A stretch of DNA of 64,000 nt from an uncultured Bacteroidota bacterium (GTDB taxonomy: Bacteria; Bacteroidota; Bacteroidia; Flavobacteriales; Flavobacteriaceae): positions 1-64,000 of the forward strand of contig CACEGG010000004.1 of the NCBI GenBank assembly GCA_902559035.1. The letters are read 5' to 3'. The notes below the pieces were generated by a model, which ran no database searches, was not told the DNA's origin, and saw only the letters and a program-made list of their open reading frames with translations. Positions within the stretch are counted from its first letter, which is position 1; each line of letters starts with the position of its first letter. Below, piece by piece: positions 2,723 through 23,604 of this stretch. The translations under genes and the position numbers were made by a program.

Positions 2723-3085
2723 TTACAATATGATTAGGATGGAACACAGAATAAGCATAATTAGAGCCGGAACAGACTTAATAAATGGATCATTGATTTT
2801 AACATGAGCGAAAATTGCACCAACCATTAAAGTTCCAATTACAAAAGCAGCGTATTCAACAAGATTCGAATACCAAATCCCTGCAATAAGTAAAACAGCC
2901 ATAGACAGTTTTAAAAATCCAACTAATTTCATGAACCAGTTGTTAAATCCATATGTTTCAAATTCTTCAGACATATTACCTGCGTTTCCTCCTCTATATT
3001 TAGAGGATTTGCTAAAATTTATTAGCCACACATTAAAAATTCCTAAAGCAATAATGAGCTGAACAATGAGTTTTAAATTTTCCAT
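2723..3085 (-). CDS. DoxX-like family membrane protein
   Basis: A 120-residue integral inner-membrane protein with four predicted hydrophobic segments (about 5-22, 50-70, 75-93 and 101-120), the size and layout of the DoxX-like family. After TM1 it carries the loop SSKYRGGNAGNMSEEFETYG and then a WFMKLVGFLKLSMA segment, typical of the flavobacterial members. The biochemical role of these small proteins is not established; relatives are linked to thiosulfate:quinone oxidation or redox stress. It sits alone between aconitase and the divergent CDGSH peptide gene. Family call good, function open. Confidence 0.75.
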   Translation of the reverse strand: MENLKLIVQLIIALGIFNVWLINFSKSSKYRGGNAGNMSEEFETYGFNNWFMKLVGFLKLSMAVLLIAGIWYSNLVEYAAFVIGTLMVGAIFAHVKINDPFIKSVPALIMLILCSILIIL

Positions 3086-11675: not shown

Positions 11676-11683
11676 TGTTTTAG

Positions 11684-11756
<73 letters not shown>

Positions 11757-11810: not shown

Positions 11811-12743
11811 TTACTTTTTATAAGTTTCTTTTTTCATTGCAACCTTAGGAGTTCTGTTTTCGTTATATAAACCCCAATGCTTTTCAGGTTCTAAAGAGTC
11901 ATCTGATCCTTTCCAAGGCTCATCAAAGGCTTCAAATAAGAAAGTCAGGACTTTTTTTTCTTCACTCCATTTAGAAAGTTGTTTGTAGTATATTTTTTGA
12001 AAATGTTCGTTAGTATTATGCTTTTTTATTTCAATGTCATTAGTTGAAGTTGTCCAGCCAGCCTCAGTTATAACAATTAATTTATTAGGATATTTAGAAC
12101 GAACCAAATCAAAATTCTCAATCGTATAATTTAAGGCATCGTCTATATAAACATTTTCCCATTGAGGGTAGGTGTGAATAGAAATAAAGTCCAATACCTC
12201 AACTAGTTTTTCTAGTTTATTTACCCATGTAACATAGTTTTCACAAAAAGTAATAGGTTGTTTAGCTTTTGACTTTAAGATCTTAGCGTAGTTTACTACA
12301 CTTTCCACGGGGACCATATGGTCTGTCCAACTTACACAAGCTTCATTACCAATTGAGAGTGAAAAGATAATTTTAGGGTATTTCTTTCCAAGTTCAGAAA
12401 GTAAATCAATTCTTTCTAAATTTCTTTTCTTATTTATTTTTAATTGATCATTAGAATACTCTCCTCCCCAAGGACATGAGTAATTATTTACTTCTGCTTC
12501 AATATAACAACCAAGCATAACTTTTAAGTTGAGTTTTTCATTTTTTATAACCTCTAGAACAGTTCTCGAATGAAAATCACAACTGTATAACCTAATGTAT
12601 TTCCATGTTTTGTTTATAATAAAAAGGTCTTCTTTTACCTGGTTGTAAGTAGGAAAAATTTCTCCAGGTGTTTGACCTTTTCTATATCCAGAGTAGCAAA
12701 CTGCTTTTCCAATATCTATATTAAGTACTTTTGAATAATCCAA
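11811..12743 (-). CDS. GH17-like beta-1,3-glucan hydrolase/transferase, cytoplasmic
   Basis: A 310-residue TIM-barrel protein of glycoside hydrolase family 17 type (COG5309-like). The acid/base Glu is E134 in SIGNEACVSW and the nucleophile is E227 in VITEAGWTT. Other family marks are GKAVCYSGYRKGQTPGE near the N-terminus, YIRLYSCD, IHTYPQWENV and LFEAFDEPWK near the end. There is no signal peptide, so it should act in the cytoplasm on imported beta-1,3-gluco-oligosaccharides, either hydrolysing them or transglycosylating. It is the last gene of the operon, two bases after the preceding GH17 gene. Whether it cuts or rearranges glucan cannot be told from sequence. Confidence 0.82.
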   Translation of the reverse strand: MDYSKVLNIDIGKAVCYSGYRKGQTPGEIFPTYNQVKEDLFIINKTWKYIRLYSCDFHSRTVLEVIKNEKLNLKVMLGCYIEAEVNNYSCPWGGEYSNDQLKINKKRNLERIDLLSELGKKYPKIIFSLSIGNEACVSWTDHMVPVESVVNYAKILKSKAKQPITFCENYVTWVNKLEKLVEVLDFISIHTYPQWENVYIDDALNYTIENFDLVRSKYPNKLIVITEAGWTTSTNDIEIKKHNTNEHFQKIYYKQLSKWSEEKKVLTFLFEAFDEPWKGSDDSLEPEKHWGLYNENRTPKVAMKKETYKK

Positions 12744-12745
12744 TA

Positions 12746-13630
12746 TTAAAATTTTAATTTTTCATCTTTATCCCACAAACCCCAGTAAGCTCCTACATCT
12801 CCTTCAACACCAACTTTCCACGATTCATCAAAAGCTGAAAAATAAAACATTTCAATATTATCTTCAAATGACCAATTTTGTGCATTAATGAAATACTTAT
12901 GAGCATTTTCTTTCGATGGGTGAGCACCTCTTAAACTTGCTCCTTGACTAGGCCAACCAGTTTCGGTAATAATTACTTTTTTTCCCTTTCCAGCTGAATT
13001 TGCCTCAAAGTACATTTGTTTCATGTACATTAAAGAGTATTCTAAACTACAACCTTCCCAATAAGGATAGCAATTAGCTAATATAACATCACATGAATCT
13101 GCTAAATTGGGTCTAGCAGAAAATTCATAGTATGCATCAACATAACCAGCAGGAACATCTCCAATTTCCTTTTTAACTAAATTAATGTAGTCGATAAGTT
13201 CAGTTTCAGACATTTCCTTTCTGTATAAAACCTCATTTCCAACTCCTGCAACATCGACATGTCCAGATTTACATAAAGAAATTAATCCATTGATTTCCTT
13301 TTCATTTGTTAGTTTATCATCACTGAGCCATGCACCAACTAATGTTTTTAAACCTAATTCTTTTGCAAGGACTGGAATTCTTTCATTTCCTTCGGTACAA
13401 GAAAATGTTCTAATCCATTTAATGTAAGGTTTAATAATATTTAATTTTCTTAAAATTTGCTCGTCAGAAATATTATCACCAGGCTTTTGACCTTCATCAT
13501 AAGCACTAAAACAGAATCCATGAATTCCATTTTTAAGAAACTTATTACAAAGCTTTTTTAACTCTGATTCAGAAACTATATTTAAGTTGATACCTGTTAA
13601 AGAATGTATTTTTTCCTTTCTATAAGACAT
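12746..13630 (-). CDS. GH17 beta-1,3-glucanase-like enzyme, cytoplasmic
   Basis: A 294-residue family GH17 TIM barrel. Catalytic residues are both present: E133 in GVGNEVLYR and E223 in ITETGWPSQG, the classical GH17 nucleophile motif. The segment GFCFSAYDEGQKPGD parallels GYRKGQTPGE in the neighbouring paralogue. No signal peptide is seen, so a cytoplasmic role on imported laminarin oligosaccharides is expected. Its ATG lies 11 bases inside the end of the transporter gene, so the two are translationally coupled, which links the enzyme directly to uptake. It may release glucose or shorten chains for the phosphorylase. Confidence 0.85.
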   Translation of the reverse strand: MSYRKEKIHSLTGINLNIVSESELKKLCNKFLKNGIHGFCFSAYDEGQKPGDNISDEQILRKLNIIKPYIKWIRTFSCTEGNERIPVLAKELGLKTLVGAWLSDDKLTNEKEINGLISLCKSGHVDVAGVGNEVLYRKEMSETELIDYINLVKKEIGDVPAGYVDAYYEFSARPNLADSCDVILANCYPYWEGCSLEYSLMYMKQMYFEANSAGKGKKVIITETGWPSQGASLRGAHPSKENAHKYFINAQNWSFEDNIEMFYFSAFDESWKVGVEGDVGAYWGLWDKDEKLKF

Positions 13631-15041
13631 TTTTATTTTTTAACTCCAATTGTTTTTTAATTTCATTAGCTTTTTCTTCCGAAATATCATAATCTTTCAT
13701 TATTAGTATCGCTAAAACAACTCCGGTTATGGGTAAAAAAGTATAGAACAAACGCATTCCTGTTAGCGCTGTTTCAGTTACTTGATCTGGATTAAATCCA
13801 ACAAGCCATAATATAAATCCGCTAAATAATGCAGCAACACCAAATCCAAGTTTTACCATCCACCAGTATACTGCACCAAGAACACCTTCTCTTCTAACGC
13901 CATTTTCTAATTCATCTAAATCACATACATCTGCAGTCATTGACATCATTATCGTAAATAAGCTTCCGATTCCAAAAGAATGGAATGGTAAAGCAAACAA
14001 AAACATATAAGGTTTTCCAGGTATAAATAAAAACCAAAATAAAATATATCCTATTATTGAAATTAATTGAGAAAGTATAAAGGCTTTCTTTTTTCCTATT
14101 CTTTTTGAAATTATAGTGATTAATGGAATAACCAAAAAAGATGTAATAAGTGCACCAACTGATCCGTGTAATGCAGGCCAGTTTCCAGCACTTGCGGGGT
14201 CACTGTTAAATAAATAATGAACAATTATTAAAAAAGTAAAAGCTGCAATTACTTGAAATGAGTTAAAAATTAAAAATGTTGCAAACGCAATTTTTTTAAA
14301 TTGTTTAATTTTAAAAGCCTCAAAAGCAGAAATAAAAATCCCTTTTATACTTTTACTTATATAGCTAGAATTAACAGGTAAAAAATCTTTTCTATTGAGC
14401 GTTGATTTACTCTTTATGAAAATTGCGGGTATAATTGCAAAAATTGTACACGGTATAGCTACCCAAATAGATAAATCCCTTACACCTTGACCTGCTCCAT
14501 CAGGAAACCAGGTAGGATCATAGAGAATAACCCAAAACCATGGAGCTATTACCCATGCCCATTGCCCTATAAATTGAGCAATAGCCATAATCTGAGTTCT
14601 CTCATGAAAATCATCACTTATTTCATATCCCATGGCAACATAAGGAACACTGAAAATAGTTAACCCAAGATAAAACACTAGTGACCATGAAAAGAAATAA
14701 ATAAAATTATATATGATTCCGTCGTCTTCATACAATTGCCACATTGCAACATAAGCTAATCCCATTAATATTCCACCAACAAAGACATATTGCCTTCTTC
14801 TTCCCCATCTAGATTTTGTATTATCTGAAATAAATCCCATTAAAGGATCTGTTATGGCATCAAAGATTCGAGGGGCAAATTGTATTATTCCCCACAGTAG
14901 CGCTGCAAAACCGAGATCTTGAACAAGAACAATTATAAATACTCCTAAAGCCGCAGGAAACATTTGATTTGCTAACATTCCAAAACCAAAAGCTATCTTT
15001 TGGCCCATTCCAACTGAACTCTTTAAAGTATTGTTTCCCAT
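13620..15041 (-). CDS. GPH-family sugar:cation symporter (MFS)
   Basis: A 473-residue inner-membrane transporter of the glycoside-pentoside-hexuronide:cation symporter type. It has about 12 hydrophobic segments. Family marks are the N-terminal FAPRIFDAITDPLMGFISDN, then TKSRWGRRRQYVFVGG, and the TM4 region FSVPYVAMGYEIS. The C-terminal tail is a charged helix. Its position between a GH30 lipoprotein and a cytoplasmic GH17, with an 11-base overlap with the latter, makes beta-glucan oligosaccharides or glucose/gentiobiose-like products the likely cargo. It is the only transporter of the locus; no SusC/SusD pair is present in the window. Sodium or proton coupling cannot be decided here. Confidence 0.9.
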   Translation of the reverse strand: MGNNTLKSSVGMGQKIAFGFGMLANQMFPAALGVFIIVLVQDLGFAALLWGIIQFAPRIFDAITDPLMGFISDNTKSRWGRRRQYVFVGGILMGLAYVAMWQLYEDDGIIYNFIYFFSWSLVFYLGLTIFSVPYVAMGYEISDDFHERTQIMAIAQFIGQWAWVIAPWFWVILYDPTWFPDGAGQGVRDLSIWVAIPCTIFAIIPAIFIKSKSTLNRKDFLPVNSSYISKSIKGIFISAFEAFKIKQFKKIAFATFLIFNSFQVIAAFTFLIIVHYLFNSDPASAGNWPALHGSVGALITSFLVIPLITIISKRIGKKKAFILSQLISIIGYILFWFLFIPGKPYMFLFALPFHSFGIGSLFTIMMSMTADVCDLDELENGVRREGVLGAVYWWMVKLGFGVAALFSGFILWLVGFNPDQVTETALTGMRLFYTFLPITGVVLAILIMKDYDISEEKANEIKKQLELKNKNVL

Positions 15042-15045
15042 GATA

Positions 15046-16527
15046 TTAGTTCTTTAGTGTTATGGTTTGAATTGCTTGTGGGCTTATTGTTACGGATTTT
15101 GAAAATCCATTTAAATTAAGATTGAAACTTTTTTCTTCAAATCCTTCATTAAATAATACAACAGCAATACTCTTGTCAGGATTTAAAGCGGCAGTAACCA
15201 TTAATTCAGAATCAGTATTCTTTGCTTCAATAATTTCAGCACCTGGTCTTATATACTTACTAAAATGTGTCATTACATAGTAAAGAGGAGTGTAGTATAT
15301 TTCATCAATATTTGGATCAACAATAATTGGTGCTACACACCAATTATTCACCCAATTAGGGCCTCCCTGAGTATCTAAAATCATATTCCAATCTACCCAG
15401 CCATCTACCCAATTATTAAGAGACCCAATGATGTCTCTTGAATATCTGTTAAATGGCGCATATTTTGGGTGTAAATATTTTTTTGCATCCTCTCTCCAAT
15501 CATAACCCCAATCAGTGGCCTCTTTTCTAAAGTACCAATCGTCATCATTCCAATGAGGGACTTCGGAGTCTATACAAGCTTCAGTTTGAATTAAATATTT
15601 GTTTGGTGCTTTGTTGTGAGCGTATTGAAGTTCGTCAGGATAAAATTCATAAGTACTATCGTACCAATGAACAGCAGTTCCATCAAAATATTTAGATGAT
15701 TCTTCGTTTTCAAACATTGAGTTAACCCATTTTTTTAGATCTGCTCTGTTTTGATCATAACCAAGAATTACTATATCTCCTTTACCGTCTTCTTCCAGTT
15801 GAGGACCTAAGTAATCTTTTACAAAATGTGTCATTTCTTCTGGTGTATAATGCATACTTTCCCAACTTGAATTATTTCCGTGTGGTTCATTTTCAACTGT
15901 AAAACCCCATATATCTATACCTTGATCTTTATAAGCATCAACATATTTTGAGAAAAATAGGGCCCAAGTATCGTAATATTTTGGTAATAATTTTCCGCCT
16001 TTCCACTCATTGTTATCTTTCATCCATGGAGCTGCTGTCCATGGAGATGCAAAAATTTTAAATCCATCTTGTGAAACTTCCATGGCTTCTTTTATCATTG
16101 GAATTATATCATCCATATCTTCATTAACAGAAAAATGTTTAAGATTGACATCTCCCTCTACTGGGCTGTAAGAATAATTGGAAATAGAAAAATCACATGA
16201 GTTCATGTGGGTTCTTGTAAGAGAATAATTAGAACCTTTTTCAGAAAAATAAGCATCTAAAATTTCTTGTCTTTTTTCTTTGCTCATTTGATTAAGTAGA
16301 TAAGCAGAGGATTCAGTGAAGGCTCCTCCAAAACCTGTAATAGTTTGAAATTTTTTATTAGTATTTAAGGTAATTTCTGATAAATTTTTGTTGATTTGAA
16401 ATTCTTTAATTTCCGATAATTTATTTCCATTTCTAGATGTTTCAAAAATATTAATTTCCATATTAGAATTTTTTTCACAAGAACAGAATGCTATTACTAC
16501 AAGTAAAGATTTAATAATTTTGTTCAT
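15046..16527 (-). CDS. GH30 beta-glucosidase / beta-1,6-glucanase lipoprotein
   Basis: A 493-residue glycoside hydrolase of family 30 (glucosylceramidase-like, subfamily 1 or 3 by overall look), probably removing beta-1,6-glucosyl branches of laminarin. The SPII signal ends at C17 (FCSCEK), so it is envelope-anchored. The family start QTITGFGGAFTESSAYLL, the acid/base E214 in FTVENEPHG and the nucleophile E316 in IQTEACID are all visible. The C-terminal 80 residues form the small beta-sandwich side domain (ELMVTAALNPDKSIAVVLFN). It is placed between a clan GH-A hydrolase and the transporter, 2-4 bases from each. No defect seen. Confidence 0.92.
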   Translation of the reverse strand: MNKIIKSLLVVIAFCSCEKNSNMEINIFETSRNGNKLSEIKEFQINKNLSEITLNTNKKFQTITGFGGAFTESSAYLLNQMSKEKRQEILDAYFSEKGSNYSLTRTHMNSCDFSISNYSYSPVEGDVNLKHFSVNEDMDDIIPMIKEAMEVSQDGFKIFASPWTAAPWMKDNNEWKGGKLLPKYYDTWALFFSKYVDAYKDQGIDIWGFTVENEPHGNNSSWESMHYTPEEMTHFVKDYLGPQLEEDGKGDIVILGYDQNRADLKKWVNSMFENEESSKYFDGTAVHWYDSTYEFYPDELQYAHNKAPNKYLIQTEACIDSEVPHWNDDDWYFRKEATDWGYDWREDAKKYLHPKYAPFNRYSRDIIGSLNNWVDGWVDWNMILDTQGGPNWVNNWCVAPIIVDPNIDEIYYTPLYYVMTHFSKYIRPGAEIIEAKNTDSELMVTAALNPDKSIAVVLFNEGFEEKSFNLNLNGFSKSVTISPQAIQTITLKN

Positions 16528-16529
16528 AC

Positions 16530-17537
16530 TTAATTGTTGTATTTTTTCTTAATTACTTCAAATGATTTCTTTTTGTTACGATTAATATCAAGTATCCCCC
16601 AATATTCTTCATTTGGAGCTCCATCATAAGGCACACCAATACTGTTTGGAGCCCAACCTCCAACATCTTGTTTACTTGGATTACCCGCCTTCCATAACCC
16701 ATCAATAAATTGAAATATTAAAACACCAGCAACAGTATCAGAATTATTAAATACCGCATCAATAATTTTAGAGTTAGCATCTGCTTGAGCGATTTGATTT
16801 TCTCCTTTTTTATATCCATCTTTTTCAATAGTCATGTAGCTGTCACTACCTGCTTCAGAAATATATAGTGGCTTTTCTGAAATATCTATCCATTCTTTAA
16901 AAATACTTGTTGGATCATCCCATCTATATACATTTAAACCCCATACATCTATATTATCTAATTTTGAAACCAAAGATTTAGAAGGAATTTCTCCATGAGC
17001 TGTTGAAATCGGTTTACTAATGTCAATTTCTTTGATTTTTAAAGCAGCTTCATTTAAAGCTTTGTACCAATTATTGATATTGTCTTCAAACCACTCTGGA
17101 TGATAATTGTATTCATTTCCCAGTTCCCACATCAATATTGCATTATGATCTTTATATTTTTTTATATAATCAGTGAAATTACCAGAAAGAATATCATAAT
17201 ATCCATTTTGATTATAACCAATACCAATTATAATTTTAATTCCAGCTTCATTAATCTTATCAAGGATTTTTATGTCATCTATGGGTGAATACACACGAAT
17301 TGTATTTACTCCAGCTTCAATCATTAATTCTAGATCTTGGTCAATATTTTCAAAACTTCTGTTTTCTTCTCCAATTTTAACTGGGTGGTAGCAAACACCT
17401 TTTATAAAGTAATTGGTATTATTGACTAATAAAGTTCTTTTTTTTATTGAAATATTATCATTCTCACAACAGTTATAATAGTTCCAACCAACAACAATAA
17501 TTGCGGAAATAAAAATGATAAAGTATTTTACTTTCAT
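16530..17537 (-). CDS. Clan GH-A glycoside hydrolase, GH2-type TIM barrel only
   Basis: A 335-residue TIM-barrel hydrolase resembling the catalytic domain of GH2 enzymes without their jelly-roll domains. The N-terminus has a hydrophobic segment (4-18) followed by cysteines C23-C24, so it is exported, as a lipoprotein or membrane-anchored protein. FIKGVCYHP opens the barrel, E142 in WELGNEYN is the predicted acid/base and E228 in YISEAGSD the nucleophile. The trailing segment around EYWGILDINRNKKKSFE resembles the end of GH2 barrels. I cannot assign a CAZy family with confidence; GH2-like, GH5 or a GH17 neighbour family are options. Its place between GH17 and GH30 genes implies beta-glucan or branch cleavage. 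Confidence 0.7.
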   Translation of the reverse strand: MKVKYFIIFISAIIVVGWNYYNCCENDNISIKKRTLLVNNTNYFIKGVCYHPVKIGEENRSFENIDQDLELMIEAGVNTIRVYSPIDDIKILDKINEAGIKIIIGIGYNQNGYYDILSGNFTDYIKKYKDHNAILMWELGNEYNYHPEWFEDNINNWYKALNEAALKIKEIDISKPISTAHGEIPSKSLVSKLDNIDVWGLNVYRWDDPTSIFKEWIDISEKPLYISEAGSDSYMTIEKDGYKKGENQIAQADANSKIIDAVFNNSDTVAGVLIFQFIDGLWKAGNPSKQDVGGWAPNSIGVPYDGAPNEEYWGILDINRNKKKSFEVIKKKYNN

Positions 17538-17540
17538 AAA

Positions 17541-18839
17541 CTATTCAATTTCAGGTGGAGTCAGTATGCTATTAAATAAGGTTTCACTATTTCCGTTAAA
17601 AGTTTTAGTTATTGAATTACCATTTCTTGTGAGTCCTTTAAAACTTCCATTATCAACATTTTCCCATAATGCATACTTTGCTTTTCCATCAACTGTAAAT
17701 AAACCAAAATGATTTTCAGAACCATTTGGATTATTTTGTGAATCTTTCCAAGGCTCGTCAAATGCTTCGAAATAAAAACAGCTAATTTTTTCTTTTATGG
17801 TCCACTCTCTAATTTTTTTAAAAAACAATGCTTGCTTGTACTCGTCAGCAGCATGAGTTCCATTGTTTCCATAAAGTTCATTTGAAACGGTTGACCAACC
17901 TAGTTCCCCAATATGAACTTGTTTTTCTACTCCAATTTTATCAAGATAATTTTTAACGCTATTGTATTGTGAGATAGTATATTTATGCACATTATCCATT
18001 GATTTATTTATAATTTCTAAATCAGAGAAGTCGTTCTTTAGGTTCTTATTAAATTTCCAAAAAGATGGATTGTAATGAGTATCATGAAATGCATATGTAT
18101 GCATTGAGATAAAGTCAACAGCTTTAATTAATGAATTTAAGTCTTCAGTATGGTAAGATTCTTCTCCACCTCCCCATGAGGCAAAATTATCTGAGCTAGT
18201 TATCCATAAATTTTCAGGAAGTTTTTTTTGTTTTTTCAAATCCTGAAGATGGTTGACCCAATTTAAAATAACTCTTGGTTTGACATAGTAGCTCCAAGCC
18301 CAATTAACCATTGCTTCATTTCCAACTGCAATAATTTTCACAATTTCTGGATACATATTTGCGAGATTAATTGCTTTTTGAATTTCTATTGCATTAGCAG
18401 ATTCATTTTCTTTTTCATGATTAGGATTATCAGTCCAGGCATTTTCACAATCAATCCAGGTACCTAACATTACATACATCTCAAAATCTGCATCTGACAT
18501 TTTTAGTTCTTTAATAGCCTTTAAAATATTAGGTGCTTGATCTAATTGTAGATTATATGTTCTTAAAATTTTTATTCCAAAAGAAGAAAGTATTTTTAAA
18601 TCTTCTTTTAATTCGTCCATGGTTGGTTGAATATCCCTAGTATTATGTCTATATCCTCCATATGAAATCGCTAAATAGTCAGGATTATTTAATATTTCTT
18701 CAGCTGTAATTTCTTTTTTATTTATCATTTGGTTTTCCAAAAAATTACAAGAAATAAATAAGCAAATCACTAACAACATAATCAAGTTTTTATTGATTAA
18801 TTTATTTTTAGAGAACTTATGTATTTCTTTAATTATCAT
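17541..18839 (-). CDS. GH17 beta-1,3-glucanase lipoprotein
   Basis: A 432-residue family GH17 enzyme exported as a lipoprotein (hydrophobic 20-30, lipidated C31 in LFISC). Catalytic residues are E175 in AVGNEAMVNW and E312 in HIGELGWST. YGGYRHNTRDIQPT at residues 60-73 marks the barrel start and YFEAFDEPWKD its last strand. The C-terminal 45 residues form a short extension not seen in the cytoplasmic paralogues. Its ATG overlaps the stop of the phosphorylase gene (ATGA), so the long N-terminal region before the signal is retained. It should act at the cell surface or in the periplasm, cutting laminarin before import. Confidence 0.87.
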   Translation of the reverse strand: MIIKEIHKFSKNKLINKNLIMLLVICLFISCNFLENQMINKKEITAEEILNNPDYLAISYGGYRHNTRDIQPTMDELKEDLKILSSFGIKILRTYNLQLDQAPNILKAIKELKMSDADFEMYVMLGTWIDCENAWTDNPNHEKENESANAIEIQKAINLANMYPEIVKIIAVGNEAMVNWAWSYYVKPRVILNWVNHLQDLKKQKKLPENLWITSSDNFASWGGGEESYHTEDLNSLIKAVDFISMHTYAFHDTHYNPSFWKFNKNLKNDFSDLEIINKSMDNVHKYTISQYNSVKNYLDKIGVEKQVHIGELGWSTVSNELYGNNGTHAADEYKQALFFKKIREWTIKEKISCFYFEAFDEPWKDSQNNPNGSENHFGLFTVDGKAKYALWENVDNGSFKGLTRNGNSITKTFNGNSETLFNSILTPPEIE

Positions 18840-21800
18840 TTTAATACATTAACATTAATTTGCTTAATAATATTTTCTCTATCAAAGAGAGACTTGCTTG
18901 ACTCATTATCAAGTTCATTGCCTTGAATGCTAACTGATTTTCCGTTAATAAAATCTATAGTGATTTTTTGTGAAGAAGATTTAGAATAGATTATTGGAAC
19001 TTGACAATATGTAAAGCATAGTGAATTCTTTTTAACATCTAATTCGATTTTTTCTTTTGATAAATTCACATATCTAAAAGTTTCAGTAGTTTCTAAAAAT
19101 TCCTGATCTCTTAGCATTTCAGGGTTGAAACTTATAACACCATTATTAACTTCAACACCAAGTTCTCCAAACCTGGATATTACATCTTCTTTAACCTGGC
19201 CAGTCATTCCCGGTTGTTGAGCTCCTTTTCCAGCTGGAGTATGTGAATAAGGGTCGGTTGGAAATGCCCCGTACAATTCAGGAGATTTATTAACGCCAAT
19301 TCCTTCTAATATTTCAAAATAGTGATCAAAGAATCTCCCAATTATAACATTATCTTTTTCACTTATTGCTTTTTTGGTGGTTTCCAGAACAGCTAAAGAA
19401 AGTTTAGATACCATGTGCCAGTAAATTGAACCTAACCCTTCATATCCAAAGAAAGTTCCTGATCGACCAGTAAATTCTTTGTGATTAAATACATCTTCAA
19501 AAACTTCAAGAATGTTGTTGTATTCTTCTTTAACTAATGAAGTGTACTTTTCTGGTAAATTTTTCAGTTCACTAATTAATCCATTTACATTATTGAAATC
19601 ACAATTAAAATGGTATGAACTTTCACAGTCTTTTGAAATTATTTGTTGGTTACCATCATTTAATAATTCTCTCAATAATTTAGATTCATTTACCTTTAAT
19701 GAAGGAATAGTATTCTTATTTAAGAATAAGCCTAAATCTTTATTAGGATAGAGTATATAACTGTATTGATCATCTCTGAACAATTGACTTGATTTTAGAG
19801 CATCTAAAACTTCTAAATTTTCTTTTGAACTAAGATATCCAGAACTTAATACAGCTACTTGACCTTCAAGCATTTCAGGCAAGTAAGAAACTGATATTTT
19901 GTCCTTTTTTATAGTTAATAAATTGTAAGCATGATAAAGTTTATCTTTTCTTTTGTTTGAATCAATAGAATGGTCTATATATAGTAAAAGAAGTTTAGTA
20001 AAATCCTTAATTTCTTTGATTCCAATGGCAGATTTTGTTCCAGAGAAACTATTATCATAAATTTTATTTCTAAAATTTGAACCTGCTATTCCAAGTAAGT
20101 CAACTATTTTTTTTCTGTTTTGATCAGAAATTGATGAGTCGATAACTTTTTTATTATTGTTTAAAGCATAATGAAGATCATTAAAAAACTCATTGAGCTC
20201 AAATGATATTTCTACAGAAATTAAATCAGTTTTTTCTAATAATGAATTGAAAAAGTTAACAAATCTTCTCAAATAATATAAAGTTACCATTGAGATTCCA
20301 TTACCAACTAGTGCATTGTTAGCATCATTCCATTCAGGTCTTTGAGTATTCATCCATATTCCACCTTCAGGGACAAAATTTGAAACTTTTGAAAGTAATG
20401 TTGCTAAAATCTTTTCAATAAAGTTAACATGGTGAATTTCAGAATTTTTATTGTGTAGTAATGACCCGTCTATTCCGAGTTTTTTTCTTCTTTTCTCAAT
20501 AATTTCTTCATTGGAATGGTCATAATCAATTGTATTTTTAGAATCCTCTAAAATCTTATCATAAGGTTTAATTTTATAGGGGACATTAGCATATACAAAT
20601 AAGCTCTTTGAGAAATATTTATAAAGTTTATTTGGAAAATGATTTTCAATGAATTCTAAAAATTTTAAAAGGTATATTATTTGATGATCCCCCCAGTATC
20701 CAATATATGACCATGGATTATCAGGCTCAATTGTTTCCCAATCAAATCCATATTTTGTCACCCTGTATGGATTATAACCATCAAAAGTTGTAGAATTTAA
20801 AAACTTATGAATCATTCCCTCAATAAATTGTGGGTATGAGTACGCTAAAGCTTCCCAGTTTTGAAAAATATCTCTCCAATTACCTTGGTAATCTAAAATT
20901 TTAGATCCGTCAACTTCACTTCTTGTGTTAATTGAGAATTTATTCCAAGGTCTACTTGGGTCACCATGTCTTCTACTAAATTTTAATGGCAGGTATTCTG
21001 TACATAATCTTTTAAAGTCATGATTTGAGATATTTTCTGAAATTGACTTCAAATGATGCAAAGTAAAATTGTCAGGAAGGCTATTTAGAGTCTCATTAAA
21101 GGATTGAAAAATAGACGAATTTGATTTACTCATGTATGAGAGAAAGTCATTTTTTTCAATTTGATAATTCTCATCAAAAATACCACCCCTCATTATGTTA
21201 AACATTGTATTAGAAAAATGCCTAATCATTCTTAGTTTATCATTAGTTAGTTGTAATCCATCTGAATTTCCAACCAATTCTCTTAGGTTTGATGATCCTA
21301 AAACAATATCATTTTTAACCTTGGTAACAATTTCTTTTTCAGTGATTATTGATTTTTTTAAGCGAACAATGTCTGAGATAGTTTGGTTAACATTACATAT
21401 AATCATCCACTGTTTTGAAGAATTTTCTCTTAATTCAATCTTTTTATTTATGAAATAAGCACCTTTTTCTGCTTTAATTTCGCTTTCACTTTTTACATCA
21501 ACACCCTTTCTAAAATCATTTAATTGTAATGAAGATAAAAGGTGTTTTGTGTTCTCTATTTCACTAGACCAAACAGTATTAGCTTTTAAAGCTTCGCTAG
21601 GCTCAGCTTTATCAACAATTATAGCACTCAAGGAAAAAATTCCTATTTTGCTTTTATCTTCTAGTTCACATTTTTTGTAAGCATCAACCAAATTACTTTG
21701 AGCATTTTGAAGCCCCTCTCCAACACCGTAGGGTAGAATATTTTGAATTCCATCAATCAAATTTATACTTACGTTTTCTTTAGAATTATTTTTTATGAAA

Positions 21801-22285
21801 GATTTTTTAATAAAACCAAATTTATTGCTTGAGTTCCATTGATAGCTAAACTCAATATTAAGGTCATGGTTAATTTCCTCAAAAATTACTTTATTTCCGA
21901 TAGTGTTTTTATAAATATTTCTAGAAATATTATAAATCCCAGAATATTTGTCAGAAAAAGGCTCCCATAAATATTTTTTTCCATTAATTTTTATAATCAG
22001 TATAGTTTTACTTCCGGTAATTTCACTTGATTCTGTAATTTTGTCATCAGTGTAATAAGGGAAAAGAGCAAATTCACTATTTTTTCTTCCAGCTGAAAGA
22101 CTTCCTGTACTCGAAATAAACATCCAGTGGTTAGAGTTACTCACAATGCTCATGAAAAATGGACGCATTTTATTCACGTTGGATATTTTATAAAAATTTT
22201 CATTTTTAATTTTTATTTGTTTCCCCTCCACTTTTTTTTCATCTAAAAAGTATTCCAAGTTTCCAATGTGAATCTTTTCTGGCAT
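18836..22285 (-). CDS. Beta-1,3-glucan phosphorylase (GH149/GH161 type, GH94-related)
   Basis: A 1149-residue cytoplasmic enzyme expected to split beta-1,3-gluco-oligosaccharides with phosphate, giving alpha-glucose-1-phosphate. It has the architecture of GH94-clan phosphorylases: an N-terminal beta-sandwich (NHWMFISSTGSLSAGRKNSE), a helical linker, and an (alpha/alpha)6 barrel. The proposed general acid is D654 in PEWNDANNALVG, comparable to the DWND motif of GH94 enzymes. Other barrel segments are GYWGDHQIIYLLKF, FRDDQYSYILYPNK and GRSGTFFGYEGLGSIYWHM. No signal peptide. The length fits GH149 and GH161 and exceeds GH94 cellobiose phosphorylase. It is the first gene of the operon, so its promoter drives the locus. 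Family assignment between GH149 and GH161 was not resolved. Confidence 0.85.
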   Translation of the reverse strand: MPEKIHIGNLEYFLDEKKVEGKQIKIKNENFYKISNVNKMRPFFMSIVSNSNHWMFISSTGSLSAGRKNSEFALFPYYTDDKITESSEITGSKTILIIKINGKKYLWEPFSDKYSGIYNISRNIYKNTIGNKVIFEEINHDLNIEFSYQWNSSNKFGFIKKSFIKNNSKENVSINLIDGIQNILPYGVGEGLQNAQSNLVDAYKKCELEDKSKIGIFSLSAIIVDKAEPSEALKANTVWSSEIENTKHLLSSLQLNDFRKGVDVKSESEIKAEKGAYFINKKIELRENSSKQWMIICNVNQTISDIVRLKKSIITEKEIVTKVKNDIVLGSSNLRELVGNSDGLQLTNDKLRMIRHFSNTMFNIMRGGIFDENYQIEKNDFLSYMSKSNSSIFQSFNETLNSLPDNFTLHHLKSISENISNHDFKRLCTEYLPLKFSRRHGDPSRPWNKFSINTRSEVDGSKILDYQGNWRDIFQNWEALAYSYPQFIEGMIHKFLNSTTFDGYNPYRVTKYGFDWETIEPDNPWSYIGYWGDHQIIYLLKFLEFIENHFPNKLYKYFSKSLFVYANVPYKIKPYDKILEDSKNTIDYDHSNEEIIEKRRKKLGIDGSLLHNKNSEIHHVNFIEKILATLLSKVSNFVPEGGIWMNTQRPEWNDANNALVGNGISMVTLYYLRRFVNFFNSLLEKTDLISVEISFELNEFFNDLHYALNNNKKVIDSSISDQNRKKIVDLLGIAGSNFRNKIYDNSFSGTKSAIGIKEIKDFTKLLLLYIDHSIDSNKRKDKLYHAYNLLTIKKDKISVSYLPEMLEGQVAVLSSGYLSSKENLEVLDALKSSQLFRDDQYSYILYPNKDLGLFLNKNTIPSLKVNESKLLRELLNDGNQQIISKDCESSYHFNCDFNNVNGLISELKNLPEKYTSLVKEEYNNILEVFEDVFNHKEFTGRSGTFFGYEGLGSIYWHMVSKLSLAVLETTKKAISEKDNVIIGRFFDHYFEILEGIGVNKSPELYGAFPTDPYSHTPAGKGAQQPGMTGQVKEDVISRFGELGVEVNNGVISFNPEMLRDQEFLETTETFRYVNLSKEKIELDVKKNSLCFTYCQVPIIYSKSSSQKITIDFINGKSVSIQGNELDNESSKSLFDRENIIKQINVNVLK

Positions 22286-22722: not shown

Positions 22723-23604
22723 ATGCATAGATCTAGTTTTGTTAATATTATTGGAAATCCTAATGTTGGTAAATCATCTCTTACTAATTCATTATTGGGA
22801 CATAAACTTTCAATAATAACATCAAAAGCTCAAACAACAAGACATAGAATTCTTGCCATTCTAAATGAAGAAAATTACCAATTGGTAATTTCTGACACAC
22901 CTGGAATAATTAAACCTGCTCACAAGTTACATGAAACAATGATGGATTTTGTTTCATTAACAACCGAGGATGCTGACATATTGCTTTATGTAGTTGAGTA
23001 TAAAGACCACACTTTAAAAGATGAAAAACTTTTTTCAAAAATTAAAAAAATTAATATTCCAGTAATACTTGTTATTAATAAAATTGATTTAATAAATCAG
23101 GATAAGTTAAATGATGAATTAGATTTTTGGAAATTAAAACTTCCTAATGCTGAGACATGGCCAATTTCAGTTAAAGAATCATTCAATATAGATAAATTAT
23201 TAGAAAGACTTGTTGAGCTAAGCCCAGAGTCACCACCATTTTTTCCGAAAGATCAGCTCACTGATAGAAACGAAAGATTTTTTGTTAACGAAATAATAAG
23301 GGAAAAAATTTTATTAAACTATAAAAAAGAGGTTCCTTATTCAGTCGAGGTTCTAACGGATGAATTCAAAGAAGATGAAAATATTATAAGAATTCGCTCA
23401 ATTATATATGTTGAAAGACCTACACAAAAGGGAATTTTAATTGGTCATAAGGGTTCCGCAATAAAGAATTTGGGAACAGTGTCTAGAATTGATCTTGAAA
23501 AATTTTTTAGTAAAAAAGTATTTTTAGACTTACATGTTAAGGTCAATAAAAACTGGAGATCAGATGAAAATAAACTTAAACAATTTGGTTACCAGAATAA
23601 TTAA
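22723..23604 (+). CDS. era: GTPase Era
   Basis: A 293-residue GTPase that binds the 3' end of 16S rRNA and assists 30S subunit maturation at the inner face of the membrane. The G1 loop is GNPNVGKSS (residues 11-19), G3 is DTPG and G4 is NKID. The C-terminal KH RNA-binding domain carries GHKGSAIKNLGT. Its length is usual for the family. It is followed 48 bases later by the gene for the related GTPase Der, a common flavobacterial pairing. The ATG start matches the family N-terminus. Confidence 0.97.
   Translation: MHRSSFVNIIGNPNVGKSSLTNSLLGHKLSIITSKAQTTRHRILAILNEENYQLVISDTPGIIKPAHKLHETMMDFVSLTTEDADILLYVVEYKDHTLKDEKLFSKIKKINIPVILVINKIDLINQDKLNDELDFWKLKLPNAETWPISVKESFNIDKLLERLVELSPESPPFFPKDQLTDRNERFFVNEIIREKILLNYKKEVPYSVEVLTDEFKEDENIIRIRSIIYVERPTQKGILIGHKGSAIKNLGTVSRIDLEKFFSKKVFLDLHVKVNKNWRSDENKLKQFGYQNN

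Follow-up and report, generated by a model that had tools for sequence, protein, structure and literature searches.

How does a bacterium make use of a β-1,3-glucan when the genes for its digestion form a tight array with no SusC or SusD among them? The question is raised by the window analyzed here, a 64,000-nt stretch of DNA (C4:1-64000) from a 1.58-Mb flavobacterial MAG that is 88.6% complete (genome G000). A first-pass annotation of the window proposed that uptake relies on the symporter encoded in the array, and added, as a hedge, that the array might represent one half of a split system, the one at the inner membrane. The hedge is now the best reading, as a matching half was found on another contig, C7. 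We consider it highly probable that the block encodes half of a system for laminarin, a β-1,3/1,6-glucan, namely the part at the inner membrane and in the cytoplasm, and that the outer-membrane half is the one carried by C7 of the same genome.

The Block and Its Borders

ORF calling on the 64,000-nt window finds seven minus-strand ORFs with the exact span 11811–22285, confirming the tight packing described earlier. Transcription runs in the order GH149, GH17a, single-domain GH-A barrel, GH30, MFS_2 symporter, GH17b, GH17c. The junctions are overlaps of 4 and 11 nt or gaps of 2–4 nt (3, 2, 4, and 2 nt). The genes and the two borders are as follows.

18836–22285, minus strand: GH149 β-1,3-glucan phosphorylase (NF058639, PDB 6HQ6/6HQ8, RD and WND motifs)
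17541–18839, minus strand: GH17a, lipoprotein-type endo-β-1,3-glucanase, FbGH17A relative (6FCG match, lipobox in orthologues)
16530–17537, minus strand: single-domain clan GH-A barrel, GH2_C-like (PF02836, 9ORO, fold Z)
15046–16527, minus strand: GH30, probable β-1,6-glucosidase debranching enzyme (PF02055; FbGH30 role per PMC6246565)
13620–15041, minus strand: MFS_2/GPH-type inner-membrane sugar symporter (PF13347; TIGR00792 below cut-off)
12746–13630, minus strand: GH17b (PF00332; 4WTP)
11811–12743, minus strand: GH17c, TTG start (PF00332 under cut-off; 6FCG)
11683–11756, minus strand: tRNA-Met (CAT), bordering the block on the left (ARAGORN)
22723–23604, plus strand: era GTPase gene, bordering the block on the right (ORF; MMR_HSR1 and KH_2)

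The two bordering genes are unrelated to the block. The domain scan places der/engA, a merR-type gene, an M23 peptidase gene, and alaS downstream of era, and an aconitase gene lies at 379–2640; era, der, alaS, and aconitase are all named by Pfam. The block is interior to the 148,282-base contig C4, away from the contig edges. No SusC or SusD is found among the seven block proteins, and no GH16 is found in the block. A scan of the proteins encoded between 379 and 28962 (a 120-aa ORF at 2723–3085 is outside the scan) revealed no recombinase. The two border regions, each searched separately, contain no direct repeats. A promoter scan gave 65 promoter-like sites versus 69.1 in shuffles, i.e., no excess. 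A comparison of gene order across flavobacterial genomes, suggested in the first-pass annotation, finds like gene sets in like order in many relatives. Thus, the block is not a product of chance.

The Phosphorylase, the Hydrolases, and the Symporter

The phosphorylase had been left as GH149/GH161-type. The GH149 half of that label stands: the protein matches NF058639 over its full length (residues 16–1147; 1763.5 bits against a cut-off of 1150) and the solved GH149 enzyme Pro_7066 (PDB 6HQ6/6HQ8) at 1525.6 bits. The GH161 half is ruled out by a score of about 47 bits for the GH161 chain 9QQK, versus 1525.6 for 6HQ6. The protein has WRD at residues 470–472 (the RD motif) and WND at 652–654 (in the catalytic loop), motifs named for GH149 in PMC6771811. 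GH149 phosphorolysis is described as proceeding down to the disaccharide (PMC6484121). No signal peptide is seen in GH149, and the sole "lipobox" that turned up in ten GH149 rows is at an internal position; a cytoplasmic location is predicted.

GH17a scores 30.0 bits against PF00332 (cut-off 28.2), GH17b 46.8 bits, and GH17c 26.7 bits, just below the cut-off. All three contain GNE plus one of GELG, TETG, or TEAG, presumably the two GH17 catalytic glutamate motifs. GH17a matches the Formosa GH17 structure 6FCG, which we take to be the endo-laminarinase FbGH17A, at 550 bits over query residues 19–429, and a lipobox is present in 10 of 10 genus orthologues. GH17c also matches 6FCG (E 1.7e-26). 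GH17b matches the transglycosylase 4WTP at 118 bits and appears nearer to this β-1,3-glucanosyltransferase. No signal peptide was seen in GH17b or GH17c. The GH17b and MFS genes share 11 nt, and the pair is the unfused counterpart of an MFS-GH17 fusion; among 93 loci searched, 61 have a close MFS-GH17b pair, which is fused in 17.

The GH30 protein matches PF02055 at 266.9 bits, along with the C-terminal domain PF17189. The biochemistry of FbGH30, FbGH17A, and the MFS-GH17 fusion is described in PMC6246565, and by analogy with FbGH30 the block's GH30 is a probable β-1,6-glucosidase that removes branches. The MFS protein matches PF13347 (MFS_2) at 193.5 bits, well over the cut-off of 27, and scores 172.8 bits against the NCBIfam "gph" model TIGR00792, under its cut-off of 231.35.

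The GH-A barrel is left without a family. It matches PF02836 (GH2_C-like) at 32.9 bits and the GH158 structure 9ORO (annotated Pro) at 37 bits, and in sequence and fold searches its fold Z of 26–28 is tied among GH2, GH157, and GH158. Residues E142 and E228, presumably catalytic-type glutamates, are invariant in 11 rows. Taken together, the family assignments bear out the β-1,3-glucan enzyme set proposed earlier.

The Probable Outer-Membrane Half

The description of the locus as SusCD-less is accurate for the block but does not extend to the genome. There are four SusD genes in the window's genome, and one of them is part of an array on contig C7 that includes a regulator with a Y_Y_Y domain, SusC, SusD, a PKD-domain protein, a small lipoprotein, GH16, and GH5+CBM6. 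The C7 SusD (SusD7) lies within 5 kb of GH16. The GH5+CBM6 gene runs off the start of C7, the contig ending inside GH5. SusD7 is the best of the genome's four SusDs for 34 of the 38 stretches upstream of GH149 that have a SusD match (39–53% identity); another of the four scores best in the other 4 of 38. The genes flanking the C7 array recur by the same SusC locus in genomes G312 and G317, so C7 fits the window's genus. The placement of C7 and C4 in the same cell rests on binning.

In Bacteroidota, acidic residues just after the lipidated cysteine are a known signal for export of lipoproteins to the cell surface. Among the genus sequences, a lipobox with two or more acidic residues in the five positions after the lipid Cys is found in SusD (10 of 10), the PKD protein (S849; 9 of 9), and the small lipoprotein (S301; 11 of 12). 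GH17a has such acidic residues in 5 of 10 sequences; of 6 GH30 sequences, 3 have a strict lipobox, and none of these has the acidic residues. For GH16, a strict lipobox is present in 4 of 12 sequences, one of which is a lipoprotein mistaken for GH16 by weak identity, and the acidic signal is not clear.

A genome-wide search for SusC/SusD and for GH16 or GH3 laminarinases, as the first-pass annotation advised, thus yields SusCD and GH16 on C7 but no GH3 partner. The sole GH3 match in the genome precedes a beta-lactamase-like domain, carries a motif that we take to be NagZ-like, and was rejected as the missing laminarinase partner. Inspection by eye of the ORFs in the surrounding 20-kb stretch revealed no other glycoside hydrolase. 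At that place (L119:8024-10929), the GH3 match is followed by a separate ORF, and the beta-lactamase-like domain seems to be split in two. A second GH16 is on contig C5 (23.5 bits), for which the genome SusD search gives no match. Two genes of the phosphoglucomutase family are present in the genome.

Arrangements of the Locus within the Genus

The genus sample comprises 22 genomes, 10 of which have GH149. These ten display two arrangements. In the contiguous form, found in G239 (FRAM18_bin141, L008), G307, and G316, GH16 is followed directly by GH149, GH17a, the GH-A barrel, and MFS; only G239 among the three has GH30 before MFS. SusC-SusD are upstream of GH16-GH149 in G239 and G307, and the G316 contig begins within the lipoprotein gene that precedes GH16. 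In the split form, found in G000, G302, G305, G299, G315, G314, and G309, GH149 faces era across 427–447 bp. In the four of these with the far end assembled (G000, G302, G305, and G309), tRNA-Met follows GH17c.

An empty site is also found. In 11 of the 22 genomes (G239, G307, G313, G004, G311, G304, G310, G308, G303, G300, and G317), no block lies between tRNA-Met and era, and the distance from tRNA-Met to the first aligned era codon is about 82–86 bp. The junction is not visible in four genomes: the G316 contig starts inside era, and no era was found in G301, G306, and G312. Distant second era copies in G302 (L212) and G303 (L207) were left out of this count. The L212 copy, with 58% identity, has the tRNA-Met and no block; no tRNA was found at the L207 copy.

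The same era junction in seven genomes, together with the empty site, indicates that the split is genomic and not an assembly break. The first-pass annotation had named, as a refutation, a locus adjacent to a SusCD pair in close relatives that had lost it by an assembly break. The adjacency in relatives is real; the assembly break is not, given seven shared era junctions and 11 empty sites. Its claim that uptake relies on the symporter proves too strong. With SusCD on C7, and with GH16 running into the module in three congeners, passage of the outer membrane need not rest on the symporter alone.

Are both halves found in every split genome? A SusC7 orthologue is present in four of the seven (G000, G302, G305, and G309) and a GH16 orthologue in three (G000, G302, and G305). 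Neither was found in G299, G314, and G315, which are 66, 79, and 80% complete. The two halves may not always occur together.

Two broken genes were seen in the genus. The MFS gene of G239 is followed by a fragmented GH5 remnant, in several pieces (L008:18741-19407), and the window's genome keeps its GH5+CBM6 on C7, open to the contig end. In G313, the laminarin-locus SusC orthologue is split into two pieces and interrupted by many stops (L190:1674-4795).

History of the Block

GH149s from the split genomes cluster with those from the contiguous ones in a FastTree phylogeny (support 99; 123 rows) and in an IQ-TREE phylogeny of 32 rows made without the SAR86 row (SH-aLRT 97). When the long-branched SAR86 row is included (33 rows), the best IQ-TREE tree nests it inside the genus group (80/95). 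Holding the ten genus GH149s together gives a p-AU of 0.251 in an AU test, which does not decide the matter.

An rpoB tree covers 18 of the 22 genus genomes, there being no match in G305, G308, G310, and G311. Six split genomes are within one group of eight genomes (support 99). No era gene was found in the remaining members, G312 and G306. The confinement of the six to one rpoB group fits a single placement of the block at era. On the opposite side of the midpoint root are six genomes that have the outer half minus GH149, or neither. The identity between G000 and G239 is 65% for GH149 versus 81% for SusD; that is, the inner half has diverged more. The module may have moved out of the PUL to era, or in the other direction.

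A broader proposal can be offered tentatively, as possible but rather unlikely. The inner-membrane laminarin module may be a movable unit, separable from SusCD, for which a single, clean insertion between tRNA-Met and era took place in this genus. A Schleiferiaceae MAG, a Cryomorphaceae MAG, and a further genus of the family have the same SusCD-less module immediately upstream of era-der, oriented the opposite way. It may be that some species retain the inner half only and live on oligosaccharides that their neighbors release.

A Proposed Two-Part Laminarin System

We infer the substrate, the protein locations, the joint work of the halves, and the energetics, and propose the following scheme. 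GH16 and GH5 would cut laminarin outside the cell, and SusCD would import the oligosaccharides across the outer membrane. In the periplasm, GH30 would take off the β-1,6 side branches, leaving cleavage of the chain to GH17a and the GH-A barrel. The symporter would then move short oligosaccharides into the cytoplasm. There, GH149 would release glucose-1-phosphate by phosphorolysis, and GH17b and GH17c would trim or rearrange the chains. Phosphoglucomutase would feed the product into glycolysis, with one ATP saved per glucose-1-phosphate released. Since GH149 acts down to the disaccharide, many units could leave as glucose-1-phosphate; ATP would still be spent on the glucose freed by GH30 and on the final unit of every chain.

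The main alternative, which we regard as unlikely, is that the block is an autonomous scavenger of small diffusible laminari-oligosaccharides from other bacteria, independent of SusCD. The symporter would be the sole dedicated importer, and general porins would serve for crossing the outer membrane. G299, G314, and G315, which have the block and no detected SusC7 or GH16 orthologue, would suit such a role, but all three are incomplete MAGs, and G309, in the same rpoB group, has a SusC7 with 93% identity. Loci in other genera give the scavenger some further footing: 23 of 59 GH149 loci elsewhere in the family, each with at least 15 kb of upstream sequence, have no SusC/SusD match in that sequence, and one of these genomes, G085, has no SusD match at all. 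The window's own genome, however, contains the matching SusCD-GH16 half, and GH17a is a relative of an endo-glucanase, suited to longer chains.

It is very improbable that the block serves another glucan, such as a mixed-linkage or a fungal or bacterial β-glucan, in place of algal laminarin. GH149 and GH17 act on β-1,3-glucans from any source and the GH-A barrel fits the GH2, GH157, and GH158 folds equally, but the gene set is like that of the laminarin-induced Formosa locus and of "variant 1" of North Sea bloom bacteria (PMC6246565, PMC10108472). Finally, an assembly or binning artefact, in which a block belonging beside SusCD was misjoined to era, might be suspected from its place in the SusCD/GH16 locus of G239, G307, and G316, but is scarcely credible for a block well inside a 148-kb contig, with the era junction common to seven genus genomes at a GH149-era distance confined to 427–447 bp and with GH149s of the two arrangements that differ by 35% (G000 versus G239).

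Comparison with Known Laminarin Loci

The variant 1 laminarin PUL is known from Formosa sp. Hel1_33_131, Polaribacter, and Cd. Prosiliicoccus, with a homologue in Muricauda (PMC6246565, PMC10108472, PMC13188888), and variant B of PMC6794258 is GH16-GH30_1-GH17. The block resembles variants 1 and B in its clustering of GH149, a GH17 pair, GH30, an MFS transporter, and an unassigned GH, and in having GH30 and MFS between two GH17 genes. It differs from them in having no SusC/SusD or GH16, which lie on another contig, and in its position between tRNA-Met and era. Unlike the Formosa-type fusion, its MFS and GH17b are separate, overlapping genes. The block is thus a SusCD-less CAZyme cluster rather than a canonical PUL, and is read here as half of a split system.

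SusCD-less GH149 clusters are neither rare nor new. The MAG W_MB115, an uncultured marine flavobacterium of the NS4 clade, has the variant 1 CAZyme set without susCD (PMC10108472); the available text of that report names neither the position of the locus nor a second half. Clusters in Bacteroidetes with GH149 and no susCD, containing GH17 and/or GH16 plus GH3 and/or GH30_1, are drawn in Fig. 7C of PMC5827456. These share the susCD-less GH149 with the window and are described, in the part of the paper at hand, as a class, without a comparison of split and empty sites.

As for the C7 locus, its SusCD, GH16, and GH5+CBM6 resemble the variant C β-glucan PUL, CBM6-GH5_46 plus GH16 (PMC6794258), a likeness at the GH5 family level only. 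Unlike variant C as described there, the C7 locus shares its genome with a detached GH149 block, and a congener, G239, has a GH5 remnant after the MFS gene. We found no description of a laminarin locus split like the window's in the open-access literature, supplements aside. The new part is the genomic split with its empty site; the enzyme set is already known.

PUL surveys count SusCD beside CAZymes, and would score this system as a canonical PUL plus an unexplained cluster. Congeners show both halves as a single locus. With contiguous, split, outer-only, and possibly inner-only forms, the genus is a natural set for asking whether laminarin uptake and digestion decouple in streamlined plankton.

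GH149 Loci in Other Genomes

GH149 is present in 102 of 299 Flavobacteriaceae genomes. Upstream stretches were examined for 67 GH149 genomes, all outside the window's genus; eight of them fell short of 15 kb and were set aside, leaving 59. By tblastn with the window genome's four SusC/SusD pairs, 35 of these stretches of at least 15 kb have SusC and SusD, one has SusC only, and 23 have neither. When those 24 genomes were searched with a SusD profile, none of the matches listed was within 20 kb upstream of GH149; among the same matches, a SusD is about 10 kb downstream in G002 and about 17 kb off on the downstream side in G181. Absence of SusCD at the level of the GH149 locus is therefore common. 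G085, 99% complete at 3.1 Mb, has a GH149-GH16 locus and no SusD match genome-wide.

The SusCD-less block, from GH149 through GH17b or GH17c, precedes era-der and is read in the direction of era at three loci: in the Schleiferiaceae MAG (L012:10001-21748; 58 bp gap), in the Cryomorphaceae MAG (L016:708-13713; gap of about 1.4 kb), and in G167, of the other family genus (L129:2191-15157; gap of about 0.1 kb). Their orientation is opposite to that in the window, and no tRNA was found there. They may reflect an old linkage or a repeated landing site.

On a contig labeled SAR86 (Gammaproteobacteria), GH149, GH17a, the GH-A barrel, and MFS occur in that order (L066:10001-15983), with a GH149 near that of the window's genus; a transfer between phyla is possible. 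Two further GH149 loci, L014 and L078, labeled Rhodobacteraceae and Bdellovibrio, sit among flavobacterial rows of the tree, and their labels are probably binning errors.
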